DNA of 45,416 nucleotides, taken from contig JAFRAH010000009.1 in assembly GCA_017405525.1 (NCBI GenBank), forward strand, positions 1 through 45,416, written 5' to 3'. Below the pieces are notes generated by a model. That model worked only from the letters and a program-made list of their open reading frames with translations. It made no database searches and was not told the DNA's origin. Positions within the stretch are counted from its first letter, which is position 1, and each line of letters begins with the position of its first letter. Positions 1,447 to 43,135 of this stretch are shown here, one piece after another. The translations under genes were made by a program, and so were the position numbers. The DNA is from Synergistaceae bacterium. Its GTDB lineage: Bacteria > Synergistota > Synergistia > Synergistales > Aminobacteriaceae.

Positions 1447-1541
1447 CTTCCTGAAACGAAATCCGCTAGTCATCCCATGAAACTGGTAGCAGGACTAAAC
1501 GGTACTTGGGCTGGTTACCAAGCCTGCTCCTAAATTATATT

Positions 1542-2354
1542 ATGAAAGGTGTGAAAACACAAATAGATACTAACACTTATAACCCGAAAGAGATTGTAGC
1601 GGCACTTTCAGCAGAGCGTCTGAAGCCTTACTCGTTGTTCACTCCGTATGCAGATGAAATCCATAGTATAGTGCCATATGATTTAGTTCAATGGCTTTCC
1701 TCAATGTTATTCACACCGCTTCAATATTTTGAAGTTACACTGCGAAACAGATTGTATGTCGTCCTAGAGAAACACTATACGTGGAGGCGTAAAAAGTACA
1801 AAGTGCTTGGTGATCCTGCCGAGTGGTTGAAATGGATGCCTACCAAGAAAAGCACAATCCAGAAGGTAAATGACGCGTATACATTTGCACAACGTAATGT
1901 GAAGAATAGGCCTGTGGTGATTGGCGATATTATCTCAGGGCTTTCACTTGGAGTCGGGATAGATATATTAAAAGAACATCCAAAGAAAGGATCGCCATAC
2001 CACTTCTGGACGTTCACACAGAACAAAATATTTCCTAATGCGAAGAATCAGAATCGTGAAACTATCTGTGCTGAACTTCTTGGGATTAAGAAAATCAGGA
2101 ACAGGCTATTTCACCATGAGCCTATATGGAATGAACCAAGTGTAAAGAATTGCCATATGGCTCTTTCCGAAATACTGAAACAGTATGAGCGTGTAATGCG
2201 GGCATTGCGTTGGTTGTCAATAGATGTGTATATGTTTCTGTGGGAAGAGGGACGAGAGTATCTCCTGAAAAAGCAGGCTTTGAAACTATCAAACTCATTG
2301 TTAGAATTATTTTCGGAGAAAAAGAATAACAGCTTACGCAGTAAAGGACGTTGA
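1542..2354 (+). CDS. Abi family (HEPN-type) abortive-infection-like protein
   Basis: 270 residues if started at the ATG at 1542; the frame stays open upstream to a TTG at 1506, and a GTG at 1551 has a better-placed GAAAGGT. The C-terminal half carries the Abi/HEPN hallmark IRNRLFHHEPIW, an R-N-x3-H pattern that in HEPN ribonucleases forms the RNA-cleaving site. An earlier EVTLRNRL matches the conserved N-terminal block of these Abi-like proteins. Family members are linked to phage exclusion, often by RNA cleavage; here that role is inferred. It has its own promoter and leader, lies among phage remnants, and is followed without a gap by a small gene. Its AT-richer, less biased codon use differs from the core genes further right, as expected for acquired DNA. 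Confidence 0.72.
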   Translation: MKGVKTQIDTNTYNPKEIVAALSAERLKPYSLFTPYADEIHSIVPYDLVQWLSSMLFTPLQYFEVTLRNRLYVVLEKHYTWRRKKYKVLGDPAEWLKWMPTKKSTIQKVNDAYTFAQRNVKNRPVVIGDIISGLSLGVGIDILKEHPKKGSPYHFWTFTQNKIFPNAKNQNRETICAELLGIKKIRNRLFHHEPIWNEPSVKNCHMALSEILKQYERVMRALRWLSIDVYMFLWEEGREYLLKKQALKLSNSLLELFSEKKNNSLRSKGR

Positions 2355-2588
2355 GTGAACATGTCTCACGACATAAAGCTCCAAACGCTTTGGAATAAAG
2401 CTGAGGCTCTGAGGGAGCATCTGAGCAATCCCGAATGGTTGCAAGCTATAGGTATAGGCTCTGATGATGGGAGTCCCTGTATATATGTGTACGCAAATAA
2501 GCTCCGTCCAGCTCGCGTCCTCGTCCCTAATACTTGGTGTGATGTTCCTGTCAAACTAAAGAAGCTTGGGAAGTTAAGCCCTGCGTAG
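2355..2588 (+). CDS. Small conserved-type protein directly after the Abi gene
   Basis: 77 residues from the GTG at 2355, which touches the stop codon of the Abi gene, or 75 from the ATG at 2361. AAAGGA lies at good distance before the GTG, inside the end of the Abi frame, so translational coupling is likely. The sequence is soluble, with no membrane segment: an N-terminal helix, then a block GIGSDDGSPCIYVYANK and a final VPVKLKKLGK. The block recalls small proteins with a V-G-I-G...PCI.VYV...P..V pattern, but I cannot name a family or a function. Tight coupling makes it a candidate partner or antidote of the Abi protein, which is inference. Confidence 0.55.
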   Translation: MNMSHDIKLQTLWNKAEALREHLSNPEWLQAIGIGSDDGSPCIYVYANKLRPARVLVPNTWCDVPVKLKKLGKLSPA

Positions 2589-2671
2589 GGTATGACCGTA
2601 TAAAGAACCGTACAAGAGATAAGTGGAATAATTTTGTAGGAGTGATTGATAGCAAGGGTTTGTATATTTTA

Positions 2672-2694
2672 TTCGGTGTCCCCGCCGTCCACCA
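2672..2694 (+). other. 3' end of a tRNA or tmRNA gene without its body: probable attachment-site scar
   Basis: The stretch reads as a T-loop-like TTCGGTG, the 3' half of a T-stem (TCCCC), a 7-base acceptor strand (GCCGTCC), a discriminator A and the CCA end. The 5' partner strands (GGGGA before the loop, GGACGGC further up) are absent in the 120 bases before it, so it is not a whole RNA gene. A terminator follows within 10 bases, as after a genuine RNA gene. This is the usual product of an element integrating into the 3' end of a tRNA or ssrA gene, with the element on the left side. The loop has G where A58 is normally conserved, which lowers confidence. Confidence 0.45.
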
Positions 2695-2702
2695 TTAAAG
2701 GC

Positions 2703-2743
2703 AATAATCCCCCGCTCATTCATTGGGCAGGGGTTATTTTTTT
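2703..2743 (+). terminator. Rho-independent terminator
   Basis: AATAATCCCC (2703-2712) pairs with GGGGTTATT (2730-2738) with one bulge, followed by seven T. It lies right after the RNA-gene 3' end and probably served it. It may also help terminate the convergent TerA-like gene. Confidence 0.7.
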
Positions 2744-2752
2744 CCCGGCAAC

Positions 2753-3883
2753 TTATTTCTTCCCTGCAACCCAGCGCAATCCCCAGCCATAATACTTGTC
2801 CATCTCTGAATGACCGCTGAAGAACTTTACGAGCTTCTCTACGCTGAACGTCTCATCATTCACATTCTCAAGCATGGCAATTGCACACATGATCTTCGAG
2901 GTGTCGTACTCGTCAAGCCTCACGACAATATCACGGCTTCCGGGACACTTCACCGTTGCGATTCCGTCAGCTTCCTGCCAGTTCGCTATGCCCTCGTAGA
3001 TGAACGTATACACGAGAATCCGCCGGAACTTCGAGATTTCCCCGCCGTTAATCCGCAGGTTCTCCCCGCCCTCAACCTCTCCCGTCCTGTCATCACCATC
3101 AAGCGAAATGTAGGGGTATGAGTCCAGTCTCCCGAATGTCTTTCCCAGTGCTTGGATTGAGCCCTTTCGTCCGTCCTTGAACTCGAACAGGCAGCCTAAA
3201 TCCAAGTCAACAGCCTCACTTTTCCCACCGCCGAATATCGACATTAGCCCCCTGCTTTGAGTTTTCTTGTGCCAGTTGAGATTGACGAGCACCTCGCCGA
3301 GCTTGGGGGTTGTCTTGTCGAGGCTGACCTTCTGACCCTTCCGCAGCTCCACAGGCTTGGGCTTCTCCCTCTGTTCTGACGGCCTCACCTCCTCGCCGCC
3401 GTAATGTCTCAGTAGCTCACTCAACCCGCCGTTAAAGCCCGACGCAACTGCCGAAATTCTCCAGCCATCTTTACGGTAGAGCTCTATGCTGATTATTGCC
3501 CGCTCATCGTGGAAGTCCGAGCCCTGAAGTGTCATCGTCATGGCCTCGCTGCCTTCGGGAGTGAGGGTTATCGTGTGTGAGGTGATTTCTCCCATCGTTC
3601 CGGCTCCGTCAATGTTCACGGTGAACACGAGACGTGCGATTTTTGCAGGGAGGGAAGGAAGGTTCACGGCAAATTCCGCACCGTTGGTGTAGGGCGAATA
3701 GGTTACTTCACCGTTTGGCGCACTCGTCTGGTTGTAGAAGATCATGTAGCGGTCATCTGAGAGTTTACCCACTTCATCGACACCAAAGCACGAGAAGTCA
3801 TATACCCCATTTCCTGAGATGCTCATATCAACCATCATCTTGACATTCGGGATTTTCCCCCTGAAGCCACGTACCATTTCCAT
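2753..3883 (-). CDS. TerD-domain protein, TerA-like (tellurium/stress resistance family)
   Basis: 376 residues from the ATG at 3883, preceded by GGGGTGA; the frame extends further to 3979, but that part would overlap the divergent uvrA start region. The N-terminal half is a TerD-type domain (VDMSISGNGVYDFSCFGVDE, then DDRYMIFYNQ and LPAKIARLVFTVNID). A basic, proline-rich linker (REKPKPVELRKGQKVSLDKT) leads to a second beta-sandwich half of the same type (LDLGCLFEFKDGRKGSIQAL, with SLDGDDRTGEVEGGE, acidic residues typical of Ca2+ binding). Two such halves give the length of TerA. Family members are cytosolic stress proteins tied to tellurite, phage and colicin tolerance. No other ter gene is near. 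The call rests on remembered motifs. Confidence 0.75.
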   Translation of the reverse strand: MEMVRGFRGKIPNVKMMVDMSISGNGVYDFSCFGVDEVGKLSDDRYMIFYNQTSAPNGEVTYSPYTNGAEFAVNLPSLPAKIARLVFTVNIDGAGTMGEITSHTITLTPEGSEAMTMTLQGSDFHDERAIISIELYRKDGWRISAVASGFNGGLSELLRHYGGEEVRPSEQREKPKPVELRKGQKVSLDKTTPKLGEVLVNLNWHKKTQSRGLMSIFGGGKSEAVDLDLGCLFEFKDGRKGSIQALGKTFGRLDSYPYISLDGDDRTGEVEGGENLRINGGEISKFRRILVYTFIYEGIANWQEADGIATVKCPGSRDIVVRLDEYDTSKIMCAIAMLENVNDETFSVEKLVKFFSGHSEMDKYYGWGLRWVAGKK

Positions 3884-3942
3884 GATATATAATTCACCCC
3901 GCAAAATCTTAGTGGAATAATTATCACAGTATATATGAAAAC

Positions 3943-6795
3943 ATGAAAGGAAAAAAATTCTTGGACGGCAAAATTTCAATTAGGGGAGCAAGAGAACATA
4001 ACCTCAAGGACATTAACATAGACATTCCGCGCGGAAAACTCATAGTTATCACCGGGCCTTCAGGTTCAGGGAAATCATCATTAGCCTTTGACACTCTCTA
4101 TGCTGAAGGACAACGGAGATATGTAGAGAGCCTCTCAGCATATGCCCGGCAGTTCCTGGGAGTCCAGAAGAAACCTGACGTTGACGAAATATCAGGGCTC
4201 TCACCAGCAATCTCAATCGAGCAGAAAGGTACAGGCCATAATCCCCGCTCAATCGTCGGGACTGTTACGGAGATCTACGACTACTTCAGGTTACTCTTCG
4301 GGCGAATAGGCATCCCTCACTGCCCAAAATGCGGAAAGCCAGTTCAGCGGCACTCAATCGACGAGATACTGAGCTACATTCTCGGCCATGAAGACGGACT
4401 CAAGACGGAGATATTCGCCCCGATGGTCAAGGGCAAGAAGGGGGAGTTCCGTAACCTCTTCAGCAGCGTCAGGGAGAAGGGATATACACGCGCAAGGGTT
4501 GACGGGACGGTGTACTACCTTGAGGAGGAGATAGAGATTGACCGCAACAAACGCCACAATATCGAGATAGTCATAGACCGCCTGAAGGTTACGCCCGACA
4601 AGAGAAGCCGCATTGCCGAGAGCGTTGAAGCCTCGCTGAAACTCTCAGGGGGTTACGTCCTCATCAAGTCAGAAGGCCATGAAGAATATACCATGACGGA
4701 GAATTATTCCTGTCCTGACTGCGAAATAGGTATGCCTGAGATTGAGCCGCGATTGTTCTCGTTCAACAACCCCGCCGGTGCCTGTCCTGACTGCGGAGGA
4801 CTGGGAAGCCACGAGCATTTTTCCCGCGAACTCACAATAGACCCCGAACGTTCAGTGCTTGACGGTGCGGTAATACCATGGAGGACTAAGCCGCATTCAG
4901 TGGAGAAGCTGAAGATGTTTGCGGACAAACACGGCTGGGACTTGAGCGTAGCCTGGAAGGACTTAGCCCCGGAAATTCAGGACTTCATCTGGAACGGCTC
5001 AGGTGATGAGAGAATGCCCATGATATTCGACGAGAAGGGAATTGCCCGGCCATACATGGGACGCTTTGAGGGAGTTACAGGGTGGCTTGAGGCAAAACTG
5101 AAGTGGTTTGCGGAGAACGAGAACGTTACGGAGGAAGTAGCACAGTACAGGGAGGAGGATACCTGCAGGACTTGCGGGGGGTTGCGTCTCAGGCAGGAAG
5201 CCCTCAACGTCAAGGTGTCAGGTTACGGCATCGGTGATTTCCTCGTTATGCCCGTTGAACGCCTCGTGAACGTCATGAAGTCCCTCAACCTCACAGACTC
5301 TGAGACCTCGATTACTGCCCAGCTCATGCCTGAGATTATCCGGCGGCTTGAGTTCCTCTGTGATGTCGGCGTGGGGTATCTCTCACTCTTGCGGCGGGCT
5401 GATACTCTCTCAGGTGGCGAGACTCAGCGTATAAGGCTTGCGACACAAATCGGCTCGAACCTCAGCGGAGTCCTCTACGTCCTCGATGAGCCGACGATAG
5501 GACTTCATTCGCGCGACACGGAGAAACTCATCAAGTCCCTGAAGTCAATTCGTGAGCTCGGCAACACCGTTGTAGTGGTTGAACATGACCGCGAGACTAT
5601 GCAGGCGGCAGATGAGTTAGTGGAGTTAGGCCCGGAGGCTGGCAGCAACGGAGGCAGGATACTTCACGCAGGGAGCTATGAGGCTGTGAGGAACTCGGAC
5701 GGCAATACGGGGAAATACCTTCGAGGCGAGGCAACAGGAATCGTTAGGCCAAAGGAACGCCGCAAGCCTTCAGGATGGTTCAGCGTACTCGGAGCATCAC
5801 ACAACAACCTCAAGGATATTGACGTGAGAATACCTTCCGGGGTCTTCACGTGCATAAGCGGGGTATCAGGCTCAGGCAAAAGCAGCCTCATCTATGACGT
5901 TCTCTATAAGGGGATGCGGCGCATTCTTGACCGTGATTTTAGGGAGCGTCCCGGAAAATTCCGCAAGATTGAGGGAGCTGACATGTTCGGGAATATCGTG
6001 CTCGTCGACCAGTCCCCCATAGGCAGGACTCCGCGTTCAAACCCAGCGACGTATACGGGAGTCTTCGGGGCAATCCGTGAGTTCTTCGCCGGACTTCCTG
6101 ACGCAAGGGTGAGGGGCTACAATGCCGGGCGTTTCTCGTTCAACGTCAAGGGCGGAAGGTGTGAGTCCTGCGGGGGTGCCGGGAGCGTCAAGACCTCGAT
6201 GCTCTTTCTGCCGGATATATATTCGGACTGTGAGGTTTGCCGGGGAACTCGATACAACCACGAGACCCTAGAGGTGCGCTTCAAGGGGAAGAACATTGCT
6301 GACGTTCTGGCAATGACCGTAGACGAGGCCGGGGAGTTCTTCCGGGAAATTCCGAGGATTTCCGGGAAACTCAGGCTGATACATGATGCAGGACTGGGAT
6401 ATATCCAGCTTGGGCAGTCTGCATTGACGTTGTCGGGCGGCGAGGCTCAAAGGGTCAAGCTGTCTAAGGAGCTCTCAAAGAAATTCGGAGGTCGTACGCT
6501 GTATTTGCTTGACGAACCTACTACCGGGCTCTTCTACACGGACATACGGAAACTGCTTGAGATAGTTCACAGGATTGTAGACAACGGAAGCACGGTAATA
6601 TTCATTGAGCACAATCTTGATGTTCTTCTGTCGGCTGACTACATTATTGATCTCGGCCCTGAAGGCGGGGAACGTGGCGGCCATGTCGTAACTTCAGGGA
6701 CACCCGAAGAGGTCATGAAGAGCGGTGAAGGTTACACGTCCGAATTTCTCAGGGACTACAAGAAGGAAATAACGGGCGGCCATATGCTAGAATAG
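3943..6795 (+). CDS. uvrA: UvrA, excinuclease ABC subunit A
   Basis: UvrA recognises DNA damage and loads UvrB in nucleotide excision repair. The 950-residue length is standard. Two ABC ATPase modules are complete: Walker [10 protein letters not shown] near residue 38 and [10 protein letters not shown] near 638; signatures [12 protein letters not shown] near 489 and [12 protein letters not shown] near 830; Walker [10 protein letters not shown] and DEPTTGLFY (F replaces the usual H). Zinc-binding CxxC pairs are at about 126 (CPKC), 257 and 283 (CPDC) and 740 (CESC, later CEVC). Start choice: the ATG at 3943 has no clear ribosome site, whereas AAAGGA at 3946-3951 lies 9 bases before a TTG at 3961. 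That TTG would give [14 protein letters not shown], matching the E. coli N-terminus better. No LexA-type operator is evident. Confidence 0.95.
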
Positions 6796-6834
6796 GCGAA
6801 ATCCAACACTCAGGAAAATTCAGGAGGGTATGAA

Positions 6835-7827
6835 TTGAACGCGAAAAAGTTAATCCCATTAATTCTTGCCGCAATTCTCTTCACCGTTAAGGCCGAAGCA
6901 ATGCCCGAAGCCTCAGCAATGCTTACCGATATTTACAGCACCTATATAACTGAGCCTTCAACGTTCGGTGAAAATGTAGCGTCATTCCTTGAAGGCCAGC
7001 GAAAGAACAAAACCTACACTGCCGGGCTCGAAAAGGAAATTTCAGAGCTCAGGAAACGTCAGAAGTTCACGCAGGAGAAGGCACTTGCTGAGATCAAGAC
7101 GCTCATCAAGGGCAATAAACTTCCCTCGTACATCACGGAAAAAGGCAAGTACACCTACACGCCGGGCGTTAATGCGGCAGTCCCAACGTCAAACGTCAAG
7201 CTCCGTTCACAGCCCAACACTGAGGCACGGGTCATCAAGGTCATCAAGGCCGGCATCCGTCAGGGGAACAGCTACACTCCACCCGAAATATGCGACTATC
7301 TTGGTGAATGGACAAGCCCGCAAGGTGAACGCTGGGTAATCGTGAACTACAGGCCGGGACTAACACAGAAGGCCAGCGACAAGAAACTAGGCTTTCTTTT
7401 CGGCGAATATGTGAGGCTCGTTACTGATGAGGACGCTCTGAAGGTTGCCGACATCTACGAGCACCCCGCCAAATATGCCAAGATTGACGCAAGCACTACC
7501 ATATCACCTGAGACTTTGTTGCGTGCCTACGTGGTCAACCCCTTCAAGGCCGAAAAGACCTACAAGGGAAAGACCTTAAGGCTTCACGGTGAGGTTACGG
7601 GCATCAAGGCAGATAATGGAGTGCCTATAGTGGAATTTGACGCTTACTTCTCGGACTTGAGCCAGCGGGCTATAGCTACGTGCTACCTGTCGAAGGATGA
7701 CCCGTTGCTTGCGGAAATCGAGACGGGAGGGAACGTAACAATTCAGGGGAAAGTCTCGGAAGTTGACACTGGAATGTGGAACAAGGCATTCAAGCTCACT
7801 GACTGCCGAATAATCGCGGCGAAATAA
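6835..7827 (+). CDS. Exported protein with SH3-like and OB-fold (tRNA_anti-like) parts
   Basis: 330 residues. The start is the TTG at 6835, set by AGGAGGG seven bases upstream; the ATG at 6830 is followed directly by a stop. A signal peptide (KKLIPLILAAILFTVKAEA) ends near residue 22. A helical stretch follows, then an SH3-like region (about 105-190) with NVKLRSQPNTEARVIKVIKAG, a typical bacterial SH3 repeat opening. The C-terminal 100 residues (YKGKTLRLHGEVTGIKAD, then GGNVTIQGKVSEVDTGMW) look like the OB-type domain found in exported lipoproteins. Such proteins sit in the envelope, sometimes binding peptidoglycan. It follows uvrA by 39 bases and may be co-transcribed. The function is unknown. 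Confidence 0.65.
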   Translation: MNAKKLIPLILAAILFTVKAEAMPEASAMLTDIYSTYITEPSTFGENVASFLEGQRKNKTYTAGLEKEISELRKRQKFTQEKALAEIKTLIKGNKLPSYITEKGKYTYTPGVNAAVPTSNVKLRSQPNTEARVIKVIKAGIRQGNSYTPPEICDYLGEWTSPQGERWVIVNYRPGLTQKASDKKLGFLFGEYVRLVTDEDALKVADIYEHPAKYAKIDASTTISPETLLRAYVVNPFKAEKTYKGKTLRLHGEVTGIKADNGVPIVEFDAYFSDLSQRAIATCYLSKDDPLLAEIETGGNVTIQGKVSEVDTGMWNKAFKLTDCRIIAAK

Positions 7828-7851
7828 TACCCATGCAGTGCTGAAACTCTG

Positions 7852-7860
7852 TGCTAGAAT
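7852..7860 (+). promoter_or_regulatory. Extended -10 promoter element before the solute-binding protein gene
   Basis: TGCTAGAAT fits the TGNTATAAT extended -10 consensus, with no convincing -35. It is 38 bases before the start codon and belongs to a set of similar elements in this window (1407, 11449, 12881, 14349). Confidence 0.4.
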
Positions 7861-7897
7861 AACTCCAATCCACATAATAATTTTAGGAGGTATCGCT

Positions 7898-8725
7898 ATG
7901 AAGTCTGTAAAAATTCTCGCAGTCCTTCTTGCAGTGTGTCTTCTGGCCGGAAGCGCATACTCAGCCGAACACAAAATAGGCCACCTCTCAAAGGTGAACA
8001 TGACCTCTGAAGAGTTCACCAAGTTCAGCGATAACGATGTCTCTAAGGGCAAAACCGCAATATTCACTGCCGGACAGCCTTACCCGATGACACATGTATT
8101 CTATGACTCGTTGATGGCCATGCAGATGGCACTCAATGCCGGTGAAGTAGATGCTATTTCCCTGCCTGAAGACGTGGCAGAATATCTCATGAGACTCAAC
8201 GATGGCTACAAGATAGTATCAATAGTTCGCACACTGCCTTCAACGCTCTCTTTCGGTTTCCGCAAAGATGACGACCCCGCAATGAGAAACAAGTTCAACG
8301 AGGCCTTGATGTCAATGAAAGCTGACGGGACGCTTGCGATACTTCGGGAAAAATACATAGCTGAGCCCGGACTTGATGAGCCTGAACCTGTGGAGTTCGG
8401 AGTGTATGAGAACATCGACAAGAAGATAAAGGTTGCCGTAACTGGAGACCTTCCGCCGATAGATTTCGTTGCTGCTGACGGAAAACCTGCCGGGTTCAAC
8501 ACTGCGGTGCTCGCCGAAATTGCCCGGAGGCTCAAGGTGAATGTCGAGCTCGTGAACATTGAGTCAGGTGCACGTGCCGCCGCATTGGCTTCGGGACGTG
8601 TTGATGCTGTCTTCTGGTTCCAGTTCCAGAAGGGAGCGGACAAACAGGCAGATGTTCCTGAAGGTGTCGTGCTCTCTGAGTCATATTACGGCTGGAATGA
8701 AGTCCTCAACATAGGGAAGAAGTAA
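7898..8725 (+). CDS. Periplasmic solute-binding protein (SBP_bac_3-like) with lobes in swapped order
   Basis: 275 residues from the ATG at 7898 (TTAGGAGG upstream). A signal peptide ends at AYS-AEH near residue 24. The halves resemble amino-acid-type binding proteins but in reverse order. Residues about 25-165 look like the usual C-terminal half (HKIGHLSKVNMTSEEF, LNAGEVDAISLPEDVAEYLM, then FNEALMSMKADGTLAILREK, the typical final helix). Residues about 185-275 look like the usual N-terminal half (IKVAVTGDLPPIDFVAADGK, PAGFNTAVLAEIARRLKVNV, then ALASGRVDAVFWFQF). No permease or ATPase gene is adjacent, so the transporter is elsewhere or the protein is a sensor-type binder. The ligand is probably an amino acid or similar small polar molecule; this is inferred from the family. 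Confidence 0.75.
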   Translation: MKSVKILAVLLAVCLLAGSAYSAEHKIGHLSKVNMTSEEFTKFSDNDVSKGKTAIFTAGQPYPMTHVFYDSLMAMQMALNAGEVDAISLPEDVAEYLMRLNDGYKIVSIVRTLPSTLSFGFRKDDDPAMRNKFNEALMSMKADGTLAILREKYIAEPGLDEPEPVEFGVYENIDKKIKVAVTGDLPPIDFVAADGKPAGFNTAVLAEIARRLKVNVELVNIESGARAAALASGRVDAVFWFQFQKGADKQADVPEGVVLSESYYGWNEVLNIGKK

Positions 8726-8752
8726 CCTGTTGAACAACCGAAAAAATCCCTG

Positions 8753-8783
8753 CCCTCCTGAGAGTTATTCGGGAGGGTTTTTG
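8753..8783 (+). terminator. Rho-independent terminator after the solute-binding protein gene
   Basis: CCCTCC (8753-8758) pairs with GGAGGG (8772-8777), followed by a T-rich tail. It separates the solute-binding gene from ahcY. Confidence 0.7.
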
Positions 8784-8836
8784 TTATACTATGACAATCT
8801 CACAATACAGATAATTCACAGGAGGCAAAAATCTTA

Positions 8837-10081
8837 ATGTCAGACTATGAAGTGAAAGACCTCAATCTTTCGGAACATGGCCAGAAAAAAATCGACTGGG
8901 CTTGGCAGTATATGCCCTCGTTGCAGTTCAGCTACAACAAGTACAGGGAAGCACAGCCCTTCAAGGGTGCAGTTATTGCGGCGTGTCTTCACCTTGAGGC
9001 GAAAACCGCAAACCTCCTCATTACCCTCAAGAAGCTCGGAGCAAGAGTAGCAGCATGTGGCAGCAACCCCCTCTCGACTCAGGATGACATTTGCGCCGCC
9101 CTCGCGAAAAACGGCGTGAACGTCTACTCACACCGCGGCATGTCAACGGATGAGTACTTCGGGTATGTCCGCAAAGTCCTGAACTACAAGCCCAACGTGA
9201 TAATCGATGACGGAGCTGACCTTGTCGCAACAATACATCAGGAGATGACCGGCCTAATCCCCGAAATTCTCGGAGGCTCTGAGGAGACCACTTCAGGGGT
9301 CAAGAGGCTCAAGGCCATGAACTCGCAGGGTGTCCTCAAGTTCCCGATGATTGCGGTGAATGATGCCCTCAGCAAATACTTGTTCGACAACCGATACGGT
9401 ACAGGCCAGTCAGTCTGGGATGGCTTCATCAGAACCACTAACATGATTGTTGCAGGAAAGACCGTTGTAGTTGTGGGCTATGGCTGGTGCGGAAGGGGCG
9501 TTGCTATGAGGGCTCAGGGTATGGGTGCGCACGTCATAGTTACGGAGATTGACCCCCACAAGGCATGTGAGGCACTGATGGATGGTTTCCGCGTCATGAG
9601 CATGGAGAAGGCCGCAAGTCTCGGCGATATATTCCTGACACTCACGGGGAACATTCACGTTATACGCCGTGAGCACTTCGCACGCATGAAGAACGGTGTA
9701 GTGCTGGGGAATGCTGGGCACTTTGACGTTGAGATAAGCAAGCCCGATTTGTCGGCAATGTCTGACCACATCGAGCACTTACGCGACAACATAGACACCT
9801 ACGTCATGAAGGACGGCCGCCGAATAAACCTTCTCGGTGAAGGACGGCTGACTAACCTTGCCTGTGCTGACGGCCACCCAATCGAGATTATGGACCTGAG
9901 CTTCTCGTTACAGCTTGAGTCAGCACTGCACATCTTCACGCACAAGCTGGAGCCCGGACTTTACCCCGTCCCAATGGAGACAGACAGGGCAGTGATGGAG
10001 GCAAAACTTGCGGCGTTGGGGATCGAAATCGACATAATGACCGACGAGCAGACAGAGTACATGAAGAGCTGGCAGGAGTAA
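8837..10081 (+). CDS. ahcY: Adenosylhomocysteinase (S-adenosylhomocysteine hydrolase)
   Basis: Splits S-adenosylhomocysteine, the by-product of methylation, into adenosine and homocysteine, using a tightly bound NAD. 414 residues, a usual length for the shorter prokaryotic forms. Substrate-domain motifs include AACGSNPLSTQDDI, DDGADLVATIH and VNDALSKYLFDNRYGTGQS. The NAD site is VVVVGYGWCGRGVAMRAQGM (GxGxxGxG-like), and GNAGHFDVEI near residue 297 matches the conserved late motif. AGGAGG lies 12 bases before the ATG. The next gene begins 6 bases after the stop and acts on the same metabolite, so the two form an operon. No SAH riboswitch can be seen in the short leader. Confidence 0.95.
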   Translation: MSDYEVKDLNLSEHGQKKIDWAWQYMPSLQFSYNKYREAQPFKGAVIAACLHLEAKTANLLITLKKLGARVAACGSNPLSTQDDICAALAKNGVNVYSHRGMSTDEYFGYVRKVLNYKPNVIIDDGADLVATIHQEMTGLIPEILGGSEETTSGVKRLKAMNSQGVLKFPMIAVNDALSKYLFDNRYGTGQSVWDGFIRTTNMIVAGKTVVVVGYGWCGRGVAMRAQGMGAHVIVTEIDPHKACEALMDGFRVMSMEKAASLGDIFLTLTGNIHVIRREHFARMKNGVVLGNAGHFDVEISKPDLSAMSDHIEHLRDNIDTYVMKDGRRINLLGEGRLTNLACADGHPIEIMDLSFSLQLESALHIFTHKLEPGLYPVPMETDRAVMEAKLAALGIEIDIMTDEQTEYMKSWQE

Positions 10082-10087
10082 TCAGGA

Positions 10088-11359
10088 ATGGCGACACTGT
10101 TCAAGGACGTATACATTTCGGACGGCTCAAGGACTATTGCAGAGCGTGTTCACCTCCTCGTCTCAAAGGGAAGGATAGCCTCAATCACAGACGCGCGGGA
10201 AAATCCCCCAAGTGCCGACAAGATAATTTCAGGTCGCGGAAAAATGGCAGTAATCCCCGGTTTCGTCAACGCACACACTCATGCGGCAATGGTCTTGCTC
10301 AGGGGACTTGGTGAGGATGCCCCGTTGATGGAGTGGCTGAAGAATAAAATCTGGCCGGTTGAAGACAAGCTGACCCCTGAATATATTTACTGGGGAACTC
10401 TTTCGGCCATGCTTGAGATGCTCGCTACAGGGACAACGTGCTTCGCTGATATGTACTTCGAGATGGAGGGCGTTGCGGATGCTGTCCTTTCTGCGGGAAT
10501 GAAGGCGGCACTCTGCAGGGGCATAACCGCCGGAGAACCGGGCAAAATCGAGCGTTCCCTCCAGAACAACATAGAGCTTGCGGAGAAGTACCACGGCCGC
10601 GAGGGTCTCATCACCGTACAGCTTGGGCCTCATGCACCCTATACCGTCCCGATGGAGGCCATGAAGAGCATCACTGAGGCGGCAAAATCCCACGGCTTAG
10701 GTGTTCACTTCCACTTCCTGGAGACCAAAGGAGAGCGCGACAATCTCGGCATGACTCCGTCAGAGTACCTTGAAGCCTCCGGGCTGGACTCAGTACCCTA
10801 CGCTAACCTTGCTCATTCCGTTTGGCTTGACCCTGATACTGAGCTCCACGAAAATATATCGCTCATTCACTGCCCTTGCAGCAACCTAAAGTTAGGCAGC
10901 GGAATAATGCCCCTTCCTTCGTGGCTTGACCGTGATGTTCCTGTTGCACTTGGGACTGACGGAGCATCGAGCAATAACCGCCTCGACATGTGGGAGGAGA
11001 TGAGGACTGCGGCAATCCTCCACAAGGGCGCAAGCATGAACCCCGTATGTGTTCCTGCAGTTGACGCTCTGAGAATGGCGACGTATGAGGGTGCCCGGGC
11101 GTTCGGTTTCTCGCAGAAGGGAATGATACGCGAAGGTTGGGCGGCTGATTTGGTGCTCGTCAACCTCGACAGCCCCCACTACATTGGTGTGAACGGTGAG
11201 AACTTAGCGGCCTATCTGGTCTATGCCGGGAGCTCCGGGGATATTGCCGGGACAATGGTCAATGGCAGGTGGCTCTACAGGAACGGCGAATACCCCACGC
11301 TTGACCGTGAGGAGATCATGCAGAAGTCTCACGAGGCACGCAAGGCAATCACCGAATAG
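10088..11359 (+). CDS. mtaD: 5-methylthioadenosine/S-adenosylhomocysteine deaminase (MtaD-type amidohydrolase)
   Basis: Zinc amidohydrolase expected to deaminate S-adenosylhomocysteine, methylthioadenosine or related adenosines to inosine forms in the cytosol. 423 residues. Metal and catalytic positions are visible: HxH in NAHTHAAMVLLRGLGED (about residue 60), His and Glu in VHFHFLETKGE (about 215), His in NLAHSVWLD (about 240) and Asp in ALGTDGASSNNRLDMWEE (about 290). It follows ahcY by 6 bases, so two routes for removing SAH are encoded side by side. The exact substrate within the MtaD/SsnA group cannot be read from sequence. Confidence 0.88.
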   Translation: MATLFKDVYISDGSRTIAERVHLLVSKGRIASITDARENPPSADKIISGRGKMAVIPGFVNAHTHAAMVLLRGLGEDAPLMEWLKNKIWPVEDKLTPEYIYWGTLSAMLEMLATGTTCFADMYFEMEGVADAVLSAGMKAALCRGITAGEPGKIERSLQNNIELAEKYHGREGLITVQLGPHAPYTVPMEAMKSITEAAKSHGLGVHFHFLETKGERDNLGMTPSEYLEASGLDSVPYANLAHSVWLDPDTELHENISLIHCPCSNLKLGSGIMPLPSWLDRDVPVALGTDGASSNNRLDMWEEMRTAAILHKGASMNPVCVPAVDALRMATYEGARAFGFSQKGMIREGWAADLVLVNLDSPHYIGVNGENLAAYLVYAGSSGDIAGTMVNGRWLYRNGEYPTLDREEIMQKSHEARKAITE

Positions 11360-11376
11360 AGAGCAACAATATAACG

Positions 11377-11413
11377 TCCCTCCTCTGGAATTTTCGGGGG
11401 AGGGATTTTTTTT
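11377..11413 (+). terminator. Rho-independent terminator of the ahcY-mtaD operon
   Basis: TCCCTCC (11377-11383) pairs with GGAGGGA (11399-11405), followed by eight T. Confidence 0.85.
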
Positions 11414-11448
11414 ATGTGTACTGTCAGAAAGTCAAGGCATTAAGCCTG

Positions 11449-11457
11449 TGATACAAT
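11449..11457 (+). promoter_or_regulatory. Extended -10 promoter of the first sugar-transferase gene
   Basis: TGATACAAT, inside a 21-base segment (CCTGTG-A-TACAATCTCCGCAA) that recurs with one change before the second sugar-transferase gene. No clear -35 box. Confidence 0.5.
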
Positions 11458-11495
11458 CTCCGCAATATTCCTGAAGGGAGATTATTTTTTTTGTC

Positions 11496-12869
11496 ATGGC
11501 CTCGCGCATAAAAGTCTTCACGTTCTCAGTCATACAGATTATTATTGATGTCCTCTTGTGGCAGTTGTGCCTGATTTTCCCGCCCGCTAACATGACGTTT
11601 GAGATACGAATATTCCTCACTGGCACAATGGCAGCATGTTTCCTCTTCCGAAAACTTTACGGCTTCAGGAACTGGGCACTCTGGGACGAAATTACCTGCG
11701 TCCTCAAAGCCTCAGTACTGATGCTCCTGCTGAGTGTCCTGTACCTTTACGCCAACAAGTTCACCGTCTCAACCTTCAGCGTAACAGCAAGGATAGCCTT
11801 CTTCATCCCCCTAACTCTCACAGCAAGGTACTTCTTCAGGTGCTGGCTCTTCAGGTCCGGGCTTCTGTCGAAATCAGTAATCATTCTCGGTGCAGGGAAG
11901 ACCGGCGAAATTTTCGCGCACTGTATAGCCTCATCACCCTTCACGATACGGCGGGCAGTATGCTTCCTTGACGACGACCCCGAAAAACAGGGCCGCGAGA
12001 TCTCTGGTGTCAGGGTTGCCGGTGAACTTGGGGACTTCGCGGGAGTACAGTCATCGCTTCATGCTGACGAGGCAGTGATAGCCATTCCTTCGGCCTCACG
12101 TAAACGGGCTGCCGACATCCTGAACATGGTAGAGGAGAGCATAGACCGGGTGCTCTACATTCCTGACATGTACATGCTCACGACATCGACAGCAACAATC
12201 AGGAGCATGGACGGCCTGCCTGTAATCTCATCGTCCCAGGGTCTCCTTAACCCCGTAAACATATTCTTCAAGACCGTAATAGACTACATAGGTGCTGCTG
12301 TGGCTCTTGTGGTATTTTCACCGTTCATGATTTGGGCGGCCTGGAAGATAAAGCGCGAGGACGGTGGGCCGATACTCTTCATTCAGGAACGCACGGGATG
12401 GAAGGGAAAACACTTCAGGACGTACAAGTTCCGCTCAATGTACACGAACGCCGACGAGATTACGCGAAAACTCTTCAGCGACCCGGAAATATTCGCGTCC
12501 TACAAGAAGGGAATAAAGCTCAAGGATGACCCAAGACTGACGGAAATCGGGGCGAAAATCAGGAAGACCAGCATTGATGAACTGCCTCAGCTCATTAACG
12601 TCTTCAGGGGTGAGATGAGCCTAGTAGGTCCGAGACCGTTAATACAGAGTGATGTTGACATGATTTACGGCGAACGTTTCACGAAGAAGGTATATGCCGC
12701 CAAGCCGGGCCTTACGGGCATCTGGCAGGTCAGCGGGAGGAGCGACCTCGATGCTGACTTCAGGCGTGAGATCAACTGCTACTATGTCCATAACTGGAGC
12801 GTGTGGCTGGATCTGGCAATACTCCTCAAGACCCCCCTTGCAGTCATAACCCACAAGGGAGCATATTAA
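11496..12869 (+). CDS. Polyprenyl glycosylphosphotransferase, WbaP/CpsE type (copy 1)
   Basis: Transfers a sugar-1-phosphate from a nucleotide sugar to undecaprenyl phosphate, the first step of surface polysaccharide assembly at the inner membrane. 457 residues: about four N-terminal membrane segments; a Rossmann-like CoA_binding_3 domain ([17 protein letters not shown] near 128, then VCFLDDDPEKQGREISGV); a membrane hairpin near 260-285; and the catalytic domain ([52 protein letters not shown]) ending in HKGAY. The acidic pair in SIDELPQ is the catalytic site in this superfamily. It starts at the ATG at 11496 with GAAGGGAG 15 bases before, rather far. It is the first of three tandem paralogues; which sugar is used is unknown. 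Confidence 0.9.
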   Translation: MASRIKVFTFSVIQIIIDVLLWQLCLIFPPANMTFEIRIFLTGTMAACFLFRKLYGFRNWALWDEITCVLKASVLMLLLSVLYLYANKFTVSTFSVTARIAFFIPLTLTARYFFRCWLFRSGLLSKSVIILGAGKTGEIFAHCIASSPFTIRRAVCFLDDDPEKQGREISGVRVAGELGDFAGVQSSLHADEAVIAIPSASRKRAADILNMVEESIDRVLYIPDMYMLTTSTATIRSMDGLPVISSSQGLLNPVNIFFKTVIDYIGAAVALVVFSPFMIWAAWKIKREDGGPILFIQERTGWKGKHFRTYKFRSMYTNADEITRKLFSDPEIFASYKKGIKLKDDPRLTEIGAKIRKTSIDELPQLINVFRGEMSLVGPRPLIQSDVDMIYGERFTKKVYAAKPGLTGIWQVSGRSDLDADFRREINCYYVHNWSVWLDLAILLKTPLAVITHKGAY

Positions 12870-12880
12870 CCCCGTTCCTG

Positions 12881-12889
12881 TGGTACAAT
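12881..12889 (+). promoter_or_regulatory. Extended -10 promoter of the second sugar-transferase gene
   Basis: TGGTACAAT within CCTGTG-G-TACAATCTCCGCAA, matching the element before copy 1 at 20 of 21 positions. It implies that the promoter was copied along with the gene. Confidence 0.5.
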
Positions 12890-12943
12890 CTCCGCAAATC
12901 ACAATACAATTCAAGAAGGAGGCGTAAAGAAATAGAGACTGAC

Positions 12944-14344
12944 ATGCAGAGGATAAAGCCTCAGAAAACATCATCACAAACAGCACGCTTCCTGCTGTAT
13001 TCCCTCCAGGCAGTGATTGACGCTGTGCTCTTCTATTCGTGCATGGTCATTATGCCGGGGAAAATGCCGCATGAAACGAGGGCATTCCTCACAGGGACTA
13101 TGCTTTTGTTCTTCATGTTCGGGTCAATGTATGGCTTCAGGAACTGGACTTTCCGGGACGAAATGAAGAAATGCCTCCGTTCGGGACTGATCATATTTCT
13201 CGTCAGCGTCCTCTTCTTCTACACCAAGGGCAACAGGGCACGGCTTTTCTCCGTAGTTTTGGGGCTCTCGCTCTTTATCCCCCTTGACCTAGCAGTGCGC
13301 TATCTCTACAGGCGGCTGCTCTTCAGGGCAGGGCTTGCTGTTACGTCGGTGATAATACTCGGAGCAGGTGAGGCAGGTGAACTCTTCGCGCAGAACATCA
13401 CTAAGTCCCCGTTCACCGCAAGGAAGGTGCTCTGCTTCCTAGACGACAACCCGGCCATGAAGGGCAGAATCATCGGGGGTGTCCCGGTTCTGGGGGCAAT
13501 CTCCGAATTCGGGAGGGTTCAGGACGAACTGAAGGCGGATGAGGCGGTGATAGCGATACCAACGGCCTCACGTAGGGAGCTTTCGGGGATACTCGGCGAG
13601 GTTGAGGAGAGGATTGACCGCGTAATGTACATTCCCGACATGTACATGCTGACGACAATGACGGCCAAGATGAGGAGCATTGACGGAATGCCCGTGATCA
13701 CGTCATCACAGGGACTGCTCAGTCCGGTGAACATGCTGGCGAAGAACATCATCGACTACGTGGGAGGAACTGTTGCGCTGCTGCTTGCATCGTTTATCAT
13801 GCTGCCTGTTGCCTGGCTGATCAAGCGACATGACGGCGGAAGTGTCCTGTTCTATCACGGAAGGGTAGGGAGGGAGTTAAAGCCTTTCCGTATCTGCAAG
13901 TTCAGGACGATGGTACCCAATGCTGAGGCCATGCTTCAGGAGATGCTGAAGGATGACAAGCTCAGGGCAGAATTTGAGGAGTCGTTCAAGTTCAGGAATG
14001 ACCCCCGGATAACGCCGCTCGGCAAGTTCCTCCGTAAGTCCAGCCTTGACGAACTGCCCCAGCTGTTCAACGTCCTCAAGGGAGAGATGAGCCTTGTGGG
14101 GCCGCGCCCGATAGTGCAGAAGGAGGTTGAGCTGTATTACGGCTACAGGACTGCGCGGCAGATATTCCGGGTTAAGCCGGGGATGACGGGTTACTGGCAG
14201 GTGAACGGACGCAATGACGTGGAGAACTACCAGCAGAGAATAGACTTTGACCTGTACTATATACACAACTGGAGCGTATGGCTTGATATTGTCATCATGA
14301 TACGGACATTCAGGGCGGTGTTCAAGGGTTCGGGGGCATATTGA
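12944..14344 (+). CDS. Polyprenyl glycosylphosphotransferase, WbaP/CpsE type (copy 2)
   Basis: 466 residues with the same plan as copy 1: four N-terminal membrane segments, a CoA_binding_3 domain ([18 protein letters not shown], then [17 protein letters not shown]), a membrane hairpin, and the catalytic domain ([53 protein letters not shown]) ending in GSGAY. The many shared blocks with copy 1 ([20 protein letters not shown] versus [20 protein letters not shown]) show recent common origin. Start: the ATG at 12944 lies 21 bases after AAGGAGG, too far for ordinary use, while that site is 9 bases before an in-frame ATA (12932). An ATA start or a leader effect is possible. It has its own copied promoter. 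Confidence 0.88.
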
Positions 14345-14348
14345 GCCG

Positions 14349-14357
14349 TGATATAAT
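14349..14357 (+). promoter_or_regulatory. Extended -10 element after copy 2
   Basis: TGATATAAT followed by CTCAGG. It lies 33 bases upstream of a stronger promoter, so copy 3 may have two tandem promoters. No -35 box recognised. Confidence 0.35.
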
Positions 14358-14389
14358 CTCAGGAATGCAGATAATCTCACAGAAAGGAC

Positions 14390-14419
14390 TTGACACAATT
14401 GGTTTCGGGCATGTATAAT
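14390..14419 (+). promoter_or_regulatory. Consensus sigma-70-type promoter for copy 3
   Basis: Perfect -35 TTGACA (14390-14395), an 18-base spacer and a perfect -10 TATAAT (14414-14419). This is the strongest-looking promoter in the window. Transcription would start near 14426, inside the pentanucleotide repeat, leaving a leader of about 110 bases. Confidence 0.75.
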
Positions 14420-14420
14420 C

Positions 14421-14444
14421 CCACGCCACGCCACGCCACGCCAC
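14421..14444 (+). repeat. Pentanucleotide tandem repeat (CCACG, 4.8 copies)
   Basis: Four full CCACG units plus CCAC directly downstream of the -10 box, at the expected transcription start. Short repeats of this kind change length by slippage. Here that would alter the start region or leader of the third sugar-transferase mRNA and not its reading frame. Confidence 0.9.
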
Positions 14445-14537
14445 CCATCTTTGTCTCTCATCACAACTAGCAGGGAATAATTCACGTTCGCTCACTAAGC
14501 ATCCAGGGCGGACGTTTCTTTTTGGGGAGGCGCAATC

Positions 14538-15665
14538 ATGAACATGTCTCCCAAGACCTGCAAGGCTCTCACGCTCTCGTCATCACTCATCCAGGCAGCA
14601 TTTGACGCATTCATCCACCATCTGATACTTTCGGGCATTCTCTCACTTAGCGGCGCAAGTCTTGAGGACGAGGCTCGTACCTTCCTGACTGGCACGGTGA
14701 TAGTGTGCTTTGCCTTCGGTGGCCTCTATGGTACGGGTATCCTCATGCGGGGTGCTCACGAGGAGCGTCATTCAGTCGTTCGTTCGGGATTCCTGGCGGG
14801 GTTCGTGAGCGTGCTCTTTGCCCTCACGTCTGAGGCTGCCGTCCCATTGATGCCCGTAATCCTGAGTCTCGTTGCGTTCATGGCCGCAAGTCTGGGGTTG
14901 AGGTACTCACTCCGTCATTTCGTGGCCTCAAAGCGTCCCGGATTCATGAAGATGCTCACTGCACGGCCTGCATACGGACTTGAAGCCCCGTCAAGTGAGC
15001 CTGATACGTCGTTGCGGAAGGAATACAGGTACAACATGAGGGAGATACTGAGGCACAAGAGCAGGCTGTACTTCCTCGTGAAGCGGGCGTTTGATGTCGT
15101 CTCGTCTGGTATTGCGCTCGTTGTGTTGTCGCCCGTTCTTCTGGTTACGGCAGTCGCAATAAAACTTGAGGACGGCGGACCCGTGTTCTTCAGTGCAGAA
15201 CGTTACGGCAGGGATATGGGGACGTTCAGGATGCTGAAGTTCCGCTCAATGGTGCCTGATGCTGAGAGCAGGATAAAGGAGCTCCTGAAAGATAACGAAA
15301 TGACCGGCCACACGTTCAAGATAAAGGATGACCCAAGAATTACGCGTGTGGGAAAGTTCATCAGGAGATACAGCATAGACGAGCTCCCCCAGTTGTGGAA
15401 TGTCTTTACCGGCGATATGTCGGTGGTTGGGCCGCGCCCGGTGATTACGCTGAACATGGAGACCTGCGACGATTACGACCGTCAGAGGTGGCTTGTCCGT
15501 CCGGGCCTCACGTGCTACTGGCAGGTTTCAGGCCGCGCAGACGTGAAGTGGGAGCAGTGGATCGAGATGGATCTTGACTATATCGAGAACATGAGCGTGT
15601 GGGAGGACGTGAAGCTGATACTGAAGACGTTTCCCGTAGTGTTCAAGGCAGACGGGGCATATTAG
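14538..15665 (+). CDS. Polyprenyl glycosylphosphotransferase, short form lacking the Rossmann domain (copy 3)
   Basis: 375 residues from the ATG at 14538 (GGGGAGG seven bases upstream). It has three to four N-terminal membrane segments, then a linker of about 50 residues where copies 1 and 2 carry the CoA_binding_3 domain, so it is about 80 residues shorter. A membrane hairpin (IALVVLSPVLLVTAVAIKLE) and the full catalytic domain follow: LKFRSMVPDAESR, RYSIDELPQLWNVFTGDMSV, VGPRPV, PGLTCYWQVSGRAD (C where G is usual) and a terminal ADGAY. It should still be a working sugar-phosphate transferase at the inner membrane; the missing domain may change regulation. It has its own strong promoter with a repeat. 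Confidence 0.88.
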   Translation: MNMSPKTCKALTLSSSLIQAAFDAFIHHLILSGILSLSGASLEDEARTFLTGTVIVCFAFGGLYGTGILMRGAHEERHSVVRSGFLAGFVSVLFALTSEAAVPLMPVILSLVAFMAASLGLRYSLRHFVASKRPGFMKMLTARPAYGLEAPSSEPDTSLRKEYRYNMREILRHKSRLYFLVKRAFDVVSSGIALVVLSPVLLVTAVAIKLEDGGPVFFSAERYGRDMGTFRMLKFRSMVPDAESRIKELLKDNEMTGHTFKIKDDPRITRVGKFIRRYSIDELPQLWNVFTGDMSVVGPRPVITLNMETCDDYDRQRWLVRPGLTCYWQVSGRADVKWEQWIEMDLDYIENMSVWEDVKLILKTFPVVFKADGAY

Positions 15666-41151: not shown

Positions 41152-41210
41152 CTCAGGCATTCCATTTCAATCACAACATGAATAACTCTATGAGGGAGGG
41201 AAATTTTCAC

Positions 41211-41687
41211 ATGTCGTTTCTCAGGAAGCTGGACAAAAATTTTGAGTTCGTCTTTCTGGCCGGTCTTCTAATCATCATGACGGTCTTATCTTTTGCCAAC
41301 GTCGTGATGCGATACTTCTTCAAGGCACCAATATTCTGGTCGGATGAGATTTGCTGCTACTGTCTGGCATTAAGCGCGTTTGTCTGCCTGCCCTGCTCAA
41401 TACGCTACAAGTCCGCAATAAGGGTTGATACGTTCGTTACGCTCCTGCCGAAGTTCCTGCAGAAGTTGCTGCTCGTTGCCTGTGATGCCATCATGGTAGT
41501 GTTCCTCTGCTGGTGCGTTAAGGGTGGCGTTGACGTTGCGGCAATTGCGGCAAGGATAAACCAGAAGAGCCCCGCACTTCAGATCCCTGTGGCTTATTTC
41601 TACTGGTTCATGACGTTCTGCTTTGGCCTCGCAATCTTCAGGAGCCTTCAGTCTATCTACTTGACGTTCAGAGGGGAGGACAAATAG
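41211..41687 (+). CDS. dctQ: TRAP transporter small permease (DctQ-type)
   Basis: 158 residues from the ATG at 41211 (GGGAGGGA upstream; the frame extends to 41178). Four membrane segments, with the family's opening (FEFVFLAGLLIIMTVLSFAN then VVMRYFFKAPIFWSDEICCY). It pairs with DctM in the inner membrane to import a carboxylate with sodium ions. It ends 2 bases before dctM. Confidence 0.9.
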   Translation: MSFLRKLDKNFEFVFLAGLLIIMTVLSFANVVMRYFFKAPIFWSDEICCYCLALSAFVCLPCSIRYKSAIRVDTFVTLLPKFLQKLLLVACDAIMVVFLCWCVKGGVDVAAIAARINQKSPALQIPVAYFYWFMTFCFGLAIFRSLQSIYLTFRGEDK

Positions 41688-41689
41688 TT

Positions 41690-42985: not shown

Positions 42986-43135
42986 GGCATTCATGGCAAG
43001 GGTTCAGGGAATGTCCGGGAAGTCTGCGCAACGTATAAGGATTTGGGTAGAGCATCAATAACGCGGAGACATCCGGGGATTATTCCTGTTCCCTGCCTTG
43101 AGCATAAATACATCAACAAAAGGAGAGATACTATC

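Follow-up and report, generated by a model that had tools for sequence, protein, structure and literature searches.

A circularly permuted SBP_bac_3 solute-binding protein in a Synergistaceae genome belongs to a lineage-specific family

In the window, i.e., the whole stretch of 45,416 nucleotides analyzed here, one gene encodes a solute-binding protein (SBP) in which the C-terminal half of an SBP_bac_3 domain precedes the N-terminal half, and its product is almost certainly a natural circular permutant. The protein belongs to a lineage-specific family of permuted proteins, which we label "class B" in this analysis. Taken as a whole, the best explanation is that it is a permuted SBP_bac_3 receptor of an importer, which we consider quite probable. 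The earlier note on this DNA, made from the sequence alone, had placed the gene at 7898-8725 on the forward strand, and an ORF with its own AGGAGG upstream was indeed present there. The window makes up one entire contig of a draft genome that comprises 43 contigs. The features of the gene, together with those of its relatives in other contigs, are summarized in Table 1.

Table 1. Coordinates of the permuted SBP gene and its parts in the window, and of related permuted genes in other loci (aa, amino acid positions; E and H, strands and helices of the model in mature-residue numbering).
Feature	Position	Strand	Basis or remark
Circularly permuted solute-binding protein ORF	7898-8725	+	275 aa; ATG at 7898, stop ends 8725
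Ribosome-binding site AGGAGG	7885-7890	+	Visible directly in sequence
Putative Sec-type signal peptide, ~aa 1-23	7898-7966	+	Basic MKSVK start, hydrophobic core, AYSA; read from sequence
C-lobe, aa 24-122, canonical second half placed first	7967-8263	+	PF00497 profile 85-131 on aa 51-155; model elements E3-8 to E82-100
Two canonical C-terminal helices, aa 128-155, ending ...NEALMSMKADGTLAILREKY	8279-8362	+	PDB chain ends; H106-121, H123-133
New linker, aa 156-175, from old C-terminus to old N-terminus	8363-8422	+	C-to-N spacing near constant across family
N-lobe, aa 176-244, IKVAVTGDLPPIDF...VDAVFWFQ	8423-8629	+	PF00497 profile 1-63 on aa 177-239; E154-222
Last long strand, aa 257-274, canonical first hinge crossover, now C-terminus	8666-8719	+	E235-252 in model
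Pro90, at the amine-binding Asp position of amino-acid SBPs	8165-8167	+	Pro in 176/179 class B
Arg226 (GAR), family-specific, conserved	8573-8575	+	28/28 members without a fetch pattern, 150/151 with one
Trp240, family-specific, beside canonical ligand-site strand	8615-8617	+	27/28 members without a fetch pattern
Intrinsic-terminator-like hairpin and T tail, just 3' of the gene	8752-8778	+	Terminator scan
Class A SBP sites of the own genome	L186 8363-9160 with 9147-10716; L184 8428-10693; L185 8121-9011	L186 +, +; L184 -; L185 +	
Giant ORFs, 6-12 permuted units, 1787-3249 aa	L174 (G005:C39) 3857-13603; also L175, L176, L177, L178	+ for L174	
Three-unit permuted SBP-permease fusion, different phylum	L179 (G263:C167) 1490-4486	-	Pfam

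The reversed order of the halves, which the earlier note had proposed, was borne out by Pfam, TIGR01096 and PDB-sequence matches and by the family as a whole. The whole protein scored 71.1 bits against PF00497, well within this family at a gathering cut-off of 26.4, with aa 177-239 aligned to profile positions 1-63. When the first 173 residues were searched alone, aa 51-155 aligned to profile positions 85-131 (E = 7.6e-6) with a score of 26.2 bits, slightly below the cut-off of 26.4. Similarly, the first half aligned to positions 154-250 of NCBIfam TIGR01096 and the second half to positions 18-88, so that the separate searches of the two halves, suggested as a check in the earlier note, both gave SBP_bac_3, in reverse order. 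Among the 60 PDB-sequence matches listed (65 were found), the first part of the protein lay at the end of the SBP domain in 25 and the second part at the start of the SBP domain in 32, and 57 had the swapped order; the other three were a plant glutamate receptor and two thioredoxins, i.e., not bacterial SBPs. Whereas ordinary SBP_bac_3 proteins have the N-half before the C-half, the window protein has the reverse, and it was therefore filed as a permuted variant and not as an ordinary member. The earlier note had also offered fusion after the loss of the outer halves as an alternative to circular permutation. These two descriptions are not exclusive, because a tandem pair shedding its outer parts is the usual way in which permutations arise.

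A structure prediction, also named in the earlier note as a check, gave one complete and confident two-lobe (Venus-flytrap) fold: the AlphaFold2 model calculated from 78 sequences (the window protein and 77 relatives) had a mean pLDDT of 95.5 and a pTM of 0.91. In mature-residue numbering, the strands and helices of the C-lobe occupy residues 3-78 of the model and are followed by a long strand (82-100), the two canonically terminal helices (106-133), the linker, the strands and helices of the N-lobe (154-222), and a final long strand (235-252). The lobes were assigned in the model from the sequence matches, and the C-lobe part at 7967-8263 (forward strand) takes in the modeled strand that heads back to the other lobe. 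In this fold, a linker of about 20 residues would connect the old termini, and the new ones would lie just past the first inter-lobe crossover, ahead of the first C-lobe strand. Foldseek aligns structures in sequence order, so its TM scores of only ~0.3-0.5 were expected for a permuted fold and are not proof of permutation. The VIA-align neighbors of the model were nearly all SBPs, led by OpuAC of Bacillus subtilis (Z = 11.0, 204 residues aligned, rmsd 4.9 A), with the canonical SBD1 of GlnPQ below it (Z = 9.8, 169 residues only); rows no more than 1 apart in Z were treated as ties. For the class A protein of locus L067 (see below), a single-sequence model was poor (pLDDT 39) and was not used.

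We examined how widely class B is distributed. A search with the window protein (E ≤ 0.001) found matches in 44 of 61 genomes, namely the own genome, all 36 of the other same-genus genomes searched and, weakly, 7 of 24 others; the match in one same-genus genome (G021) was weak (2.8e-9). Most of the matches listed span nearly the whole protein with the order unchanged. With a profile built from the 78 sequences (E ≤ 1e-20), class B was detected in 42 of the 43 genomes of the genus (own genome included), in three of the four genomes of a sister genus, and in none of the remaining 342 genomes, which amounts to 45 of the 389 genomes searched, all within two genera. A scan of GTDB contigs yielded 162 loci, of which 79, about the best 80, were used here. 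The locus titles listed all name Synergistaceae, Synergistales or Fretibacterium MAGs, and most of them name a ruminant host or a fore-stomach sample. In these 79 loci (best of 162), 165 of the 166 class B ORFs had the C-half followed by the N-half and one had the C-half alone. The same method applied in a wider scan gave 184 class B ORFs in the C-N order and 12 ORFs with N before C, a control indicating that it can tell the two orders apart. The 79 loci were fetched with the patterns TGD[LMI]PPID[FY] and SGR[AVS]DxVFW[FIY], so the conservation of these motifs is partly by construction, and 28 members with neither pattern served as a check of the motifs. The start codons of the relatives were picked by a simple ribosome-site score, and the unit counts given here for the tree, the ligand site and the loci hold some duplicates (e.g., L179/L195 and L177/L198/L217), because overlapping loci carry the identical protein.

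These family data also bear on two rival readings. If a deletion had fused incomplete remnants of two separate SBP genes, the gene would be a decaying relic with no complete fold, and the Pfam match of either half on its own is indeed only partial. However, the model is a single, confident and complete fold, the order of the halves is kept throughout the family, and comparison with the closest orthologue (in locus L038) gave dN = 0.119 and dS = 1.27, i.e., dN/dS ~0.1; the window gene is under purifying selection. On the grounds of fold, selection and conserved order, we reject a relic or a pair of unrelated half-domains as very improbable. Even less credible is an assembly artefact, for which a draft genome in 43 contigs, with the window as a whole contig, might speak: the identical order recurs in numerous distinct assemblies, which come from several ruminant hosts, and on the strength of these independent assemblies this reading was rejected as having a negligible chance. 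Circular permutation is thus supported jointly by the half-domain searches, the PDB matches, the single two-lobe model and the swapped order across the family.

We then compared the ligand-site residues of class B with those of other SBP_bac_3 units, including a second group of permuted SBPs that keep the amino-acid-binding residues, labeled "class A" in this analysis. In LAO, an Arg binds the alpha-carboxylate and an Asp the alpha-amine of the ligand. An Arg at the carboxylate position, a column whose alignment is less sure because the region carries an insertion, was found in none of 179 class B units, 37 of 39 class A units, 49 of 62 units of fused arrays and 9 of 11 canonical units. An Asp at the amine position was found in none of the 179 class B units, 38 of the 39 class A units (which include three fused or unusual ones, L181, L183 and L220), 28 of the 62 array units and 8 of the 11 canonical units; in 176 of the 179 class B units, it is replaced by Pro. 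The LAO-like pair is therefore absent from the class B units examined. Among the 28 members without the fetch patterns, Asp184, Asp189 and Arg226 were present in all 28 and Trp240 in 27. At the position of Arg226, class A has Leu, Ile or Val, as do most units of the arrays. Mean entropy was 1.2 bits in the N-lobe part and 2.0 bits in the C-lobe part, values to which the fetch bias of the 79 loci applies. The better conservation of the N-lobe suggests that class B ligands have one shared, commonly recognized moiety and a variable partner side.

Judged from these residues, the ligand of class B has likely changed and would not be a standard alpha-amino acid. It would instead be held by the conserved set of Asp184, Asp189, Arg226 and Trp240. 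Membership in SBP_bac_3 and the amino-acid-type permease that adjoins some paralogues could be taken to mean that the window protein retains the normal mode of binding for an ordinary amino acid; the loss of both the carboxylate Arg and the amine Asp from class B, set against their near-complete retention in class A, makes this improbable.

The earlier note had stated that no transporter genes are adjacent. This held for the window copy, the neighbors of which are uvrA, an ORF with a tRNA_anti-like Pfam match, ahcY and a gene for an mtaD-like amidohydrolase (uvrA, ahcY and mtaD-like were named from the translations), but it did not hold for the family, because an amino-acid-type ABC permease lies downstream, on the same strand, of two to five permuted genes in 17 of the 79 loci (best of 162). 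In 10 of these 17 loci, no more than 16 bases separate the permease from the last permuted gene, and an ATPase is also visible in 14 of the 17. Two to five class B genes were present in 42 of the 79 loci (best of 162; two genes in 11, three in 20, four in 7 and five in 4). A single class B gene was visible in 37 of the 79 loci and no such permease in the available flanks of 62 (best of 162 in both cases), counts that arise partly because contigs and flanks end. In the own genome, a contig (C22) carries two class B genes, one small reverse ORF, a permease and an ATPase, and one further class B gene lies on contig C41, in addition to the window copy. The family is large and lineage-specific, and its multi-gene loci, often with an ABC permease and an ATPase, are invisible from the window alone.

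The class B gene of the window stands alone, followed by a terminator-like hairpin at 8752-8778 (the scanned region had two terminator-like sites, with ~1.0 expected from shuffled sequences) and then by ahcY and the mtaD-like gene. Co-transcription with ahcY and the mtaD-like gene was considered and rejected because of this intervening hairpin. The gene order uvrA - SBP - ahcY - mtaD recurs in loci L038, L039 and L041, and in L040, uvrA is followed by two SBP genes up to the contig end. The SH3/OB seed (6835-7827) had no match at 1e-15 across the 79 loci (best of 162).

Two roles can be weighed for this orphan copy. It might be the co-receptor of a periplasmic sensor or a ligand store, with no part in transport, given its own terminator-like hairpin, the lack of a transporter nearby and the many family members that stand alone (the 37 single-gene loci mentioned above); furthermore, TpMglB-2, a permuted SBP of another type, is a proposed chemoreceptor (PMC4990184). 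Nevertheless, no receptor gene was recognized beside the window copy, and sets of two to five class B genes end in a permease and an ATPase, so we regard a sensor or store as rather unlikely. Because the paralogues lie in operons with a permease and an ATPase, we infer, as the last step, that the window protein is somewhat more likely than not an orphan receptor of a shared ABC importer. As such a receptor, it would be secreted, close on its ligand between the lobes, and dock on an amino-acid-type permease and ATPase encoded elsewhere, on contig C22 of the own genome.

Where operons hold several SBP genes, one of the paralogues (usually the second) extends into a C-terminal tail, mostly of 23-33 residues and rich in Trp and hydrophobic residues (e.g., L073 5995, L076 5986, L081 4216 and equivalents). 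The permeases fused to SBP units have an amphipathic-looking segment at the position matching this tail. The tail is perhaps a membrane or permease anchor.

The own genome contains four more permuted SBPs, which are class A, and one of them is directly followed by a permease and an ATPase. Among the class A loci, both genes follow directly in 7 of 30, within short flanks. The relatives also include long proteins of SBP_bac_3 units that end in one BPD_transp_1 permease (Pfam on seven), and on L174 and L178, Pfam found a single ABC permease domain at the end. Counted by their N-halves, ten fusions had 12 (3249 aa), 8, 8, 6, 6, 3, 3, 2, 1 and 1 units, and a C-half opens nine of the ten; in the largest, the initial C-half was undetected and 186 residues precede the first N-half. 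As the three-unit fusion of genome G263 comes from a different phylum, permuted fusions are not limited to the lineage of the window; a wider search for this fusion found no second genome, the family and the phylum of G263 being represented here by one genome. A plasmid search gave two partial matches, which extend into the permease part. In a tree of 279 units (300 were found; 9 were left out for short halves and 12 for identity or gaps), class B formed a clade of 179 units (support 0.93) and class A a clade of 34 (0.98), and the deep branches linking class B, class A, the arrays and canonical SBPs were weakly supported (0.2-0.8).

The spacing of the halves is informative about the arrays. 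The C-to-N gap had a median of 19 both in the arrays (range 16-22, n = 64) and in free class A proteins (range 16-20, n = 37), whereas the N-to-C gap in the arrays was variable (median 15, range -1 to 25, n = 56); inside canonical domains, the N-to-C gap was 7 (range 4-8, n = 12). Based on this nearly constant C-to-N gap, the permuted C+N pair is most likely what folds as a unit in the arrays, which makes the arrays a plausible source of the permutation. The permutation would probably have arisen by duplication followed by loss of the outer halves, possibly by way of permuted domains arranged in tandem and fused to a permease. A fuller scenario, possible but in our view doubtful, is that bead-on-a-string permeases drove the permutation. 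Tandem SBP_bac_3 domains fused to a permease would have been locked in the permuted register, with its constant C-to-N linker, the arrays would have grown until one permease subunit carried up to 12 binding domains (24 in the dimeric importer), and single permuted domains would have been set free as periplasmic receptors. Class B, as one released branch, would then have lost amino-acid binding, gained a different pocket that is conserved, and diversified into ABC operons with several receptors as well as scattered orphans such as the window gene.

Compared with the amino-acid binders of SBP_bac_3 (LAO/HisJ and the SBDs of GlnPQ), the window protein is alike in both homologous halves, in the predicted two-lobe fold, and in having paralogues beside an amino-acid-type permease and ATPase, but its halves are reversed and joined by a new linker, the binding Arg and Asp are lost, and Asp184, Asp189, Arg226 and Trp240 are specific to its family. 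GlnPQ has two SBDs fused to its permease (PMC8025302). The SBP_bac_3 units of the relatives are likewise fused N-terminally to one BPD_transp_1 permease, but unlike those of GlnPQ they are permuted, and each protein has from 1 to 12 of them; the fusions that carry 6 to 12 far exceed the two SBDs of GlnPQ. The window protein itself is unfused: its ORF stops after the N-half and has no BPD_transp_1 match.

Natural permutation of SBPs is already known in other types. TpMglB-2 (Tp0684; "Type Ic/Cluster Bc") is a type I SBP in which permutation has placed the first three strands of the N-lobe at the end; its authors show that it still binds glucose and undergoes a conformational change, and they suggest a possible link between the permutation and tethering near the membrane (PMC4990184). 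Like the window protein, it is a natural circular permutation of an SBP, but it has the type I sugar-binding fold, whereas the window protein is a member of SBP_bac_3 whose new termini lie past the first crossover; it matched no type I family up to E = 1, so it was not assigned to "Type Ic". For OpuAC, ProX, molybdate binders and CysB, the CPSARST paper reports a relationship by circular permutation (PMC2395249). This group shares a related SBP fold with permuted members and includes the top VIA-align match, but its family differs from PF00497, and the OpuAC family (PF04069) had no match to the window protein up to E = 1 in the Pfam search. The natural circular permutants of binding proteins that we found are few and of other SBP types, and a search of open-licence PMC papers, a set in which most subscription papers are missing, turned up neither a permuted SBP_bac_3 protein nor a permease fused to more than two SBDs. 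In the genomes of this lineage, permuted SBP_bac_3 proteins, free and fused, coexist with canonical ones. This makes it testable why nature permutes binding domains (e.g., for membrane tethering) and whether permutation alters ligand range or docking.

For annotation, profile searches show only half-domain matches in permuted SBPs, which may be mistaken for fragments. At G031:C7:7524-8363 and G031:C1:568045-568827, adjacent permuted genes mimic a normal-order SBP_bac_3 domain across a TAA stop, and profile scans of such gene arrays can give false canonical domains with an internal stop. Elsewhere in the window, the translations indicate three consecutive, paralogous-looking undecaprenyl-phosphate sugar transferases (11496-15665, forward strand) and a TRAP-transporter-like set of small and large membrane subunits followed by a binding protein (41178-44134, forward strand), which lies more than 30 kb away from the permuted SBP gene.
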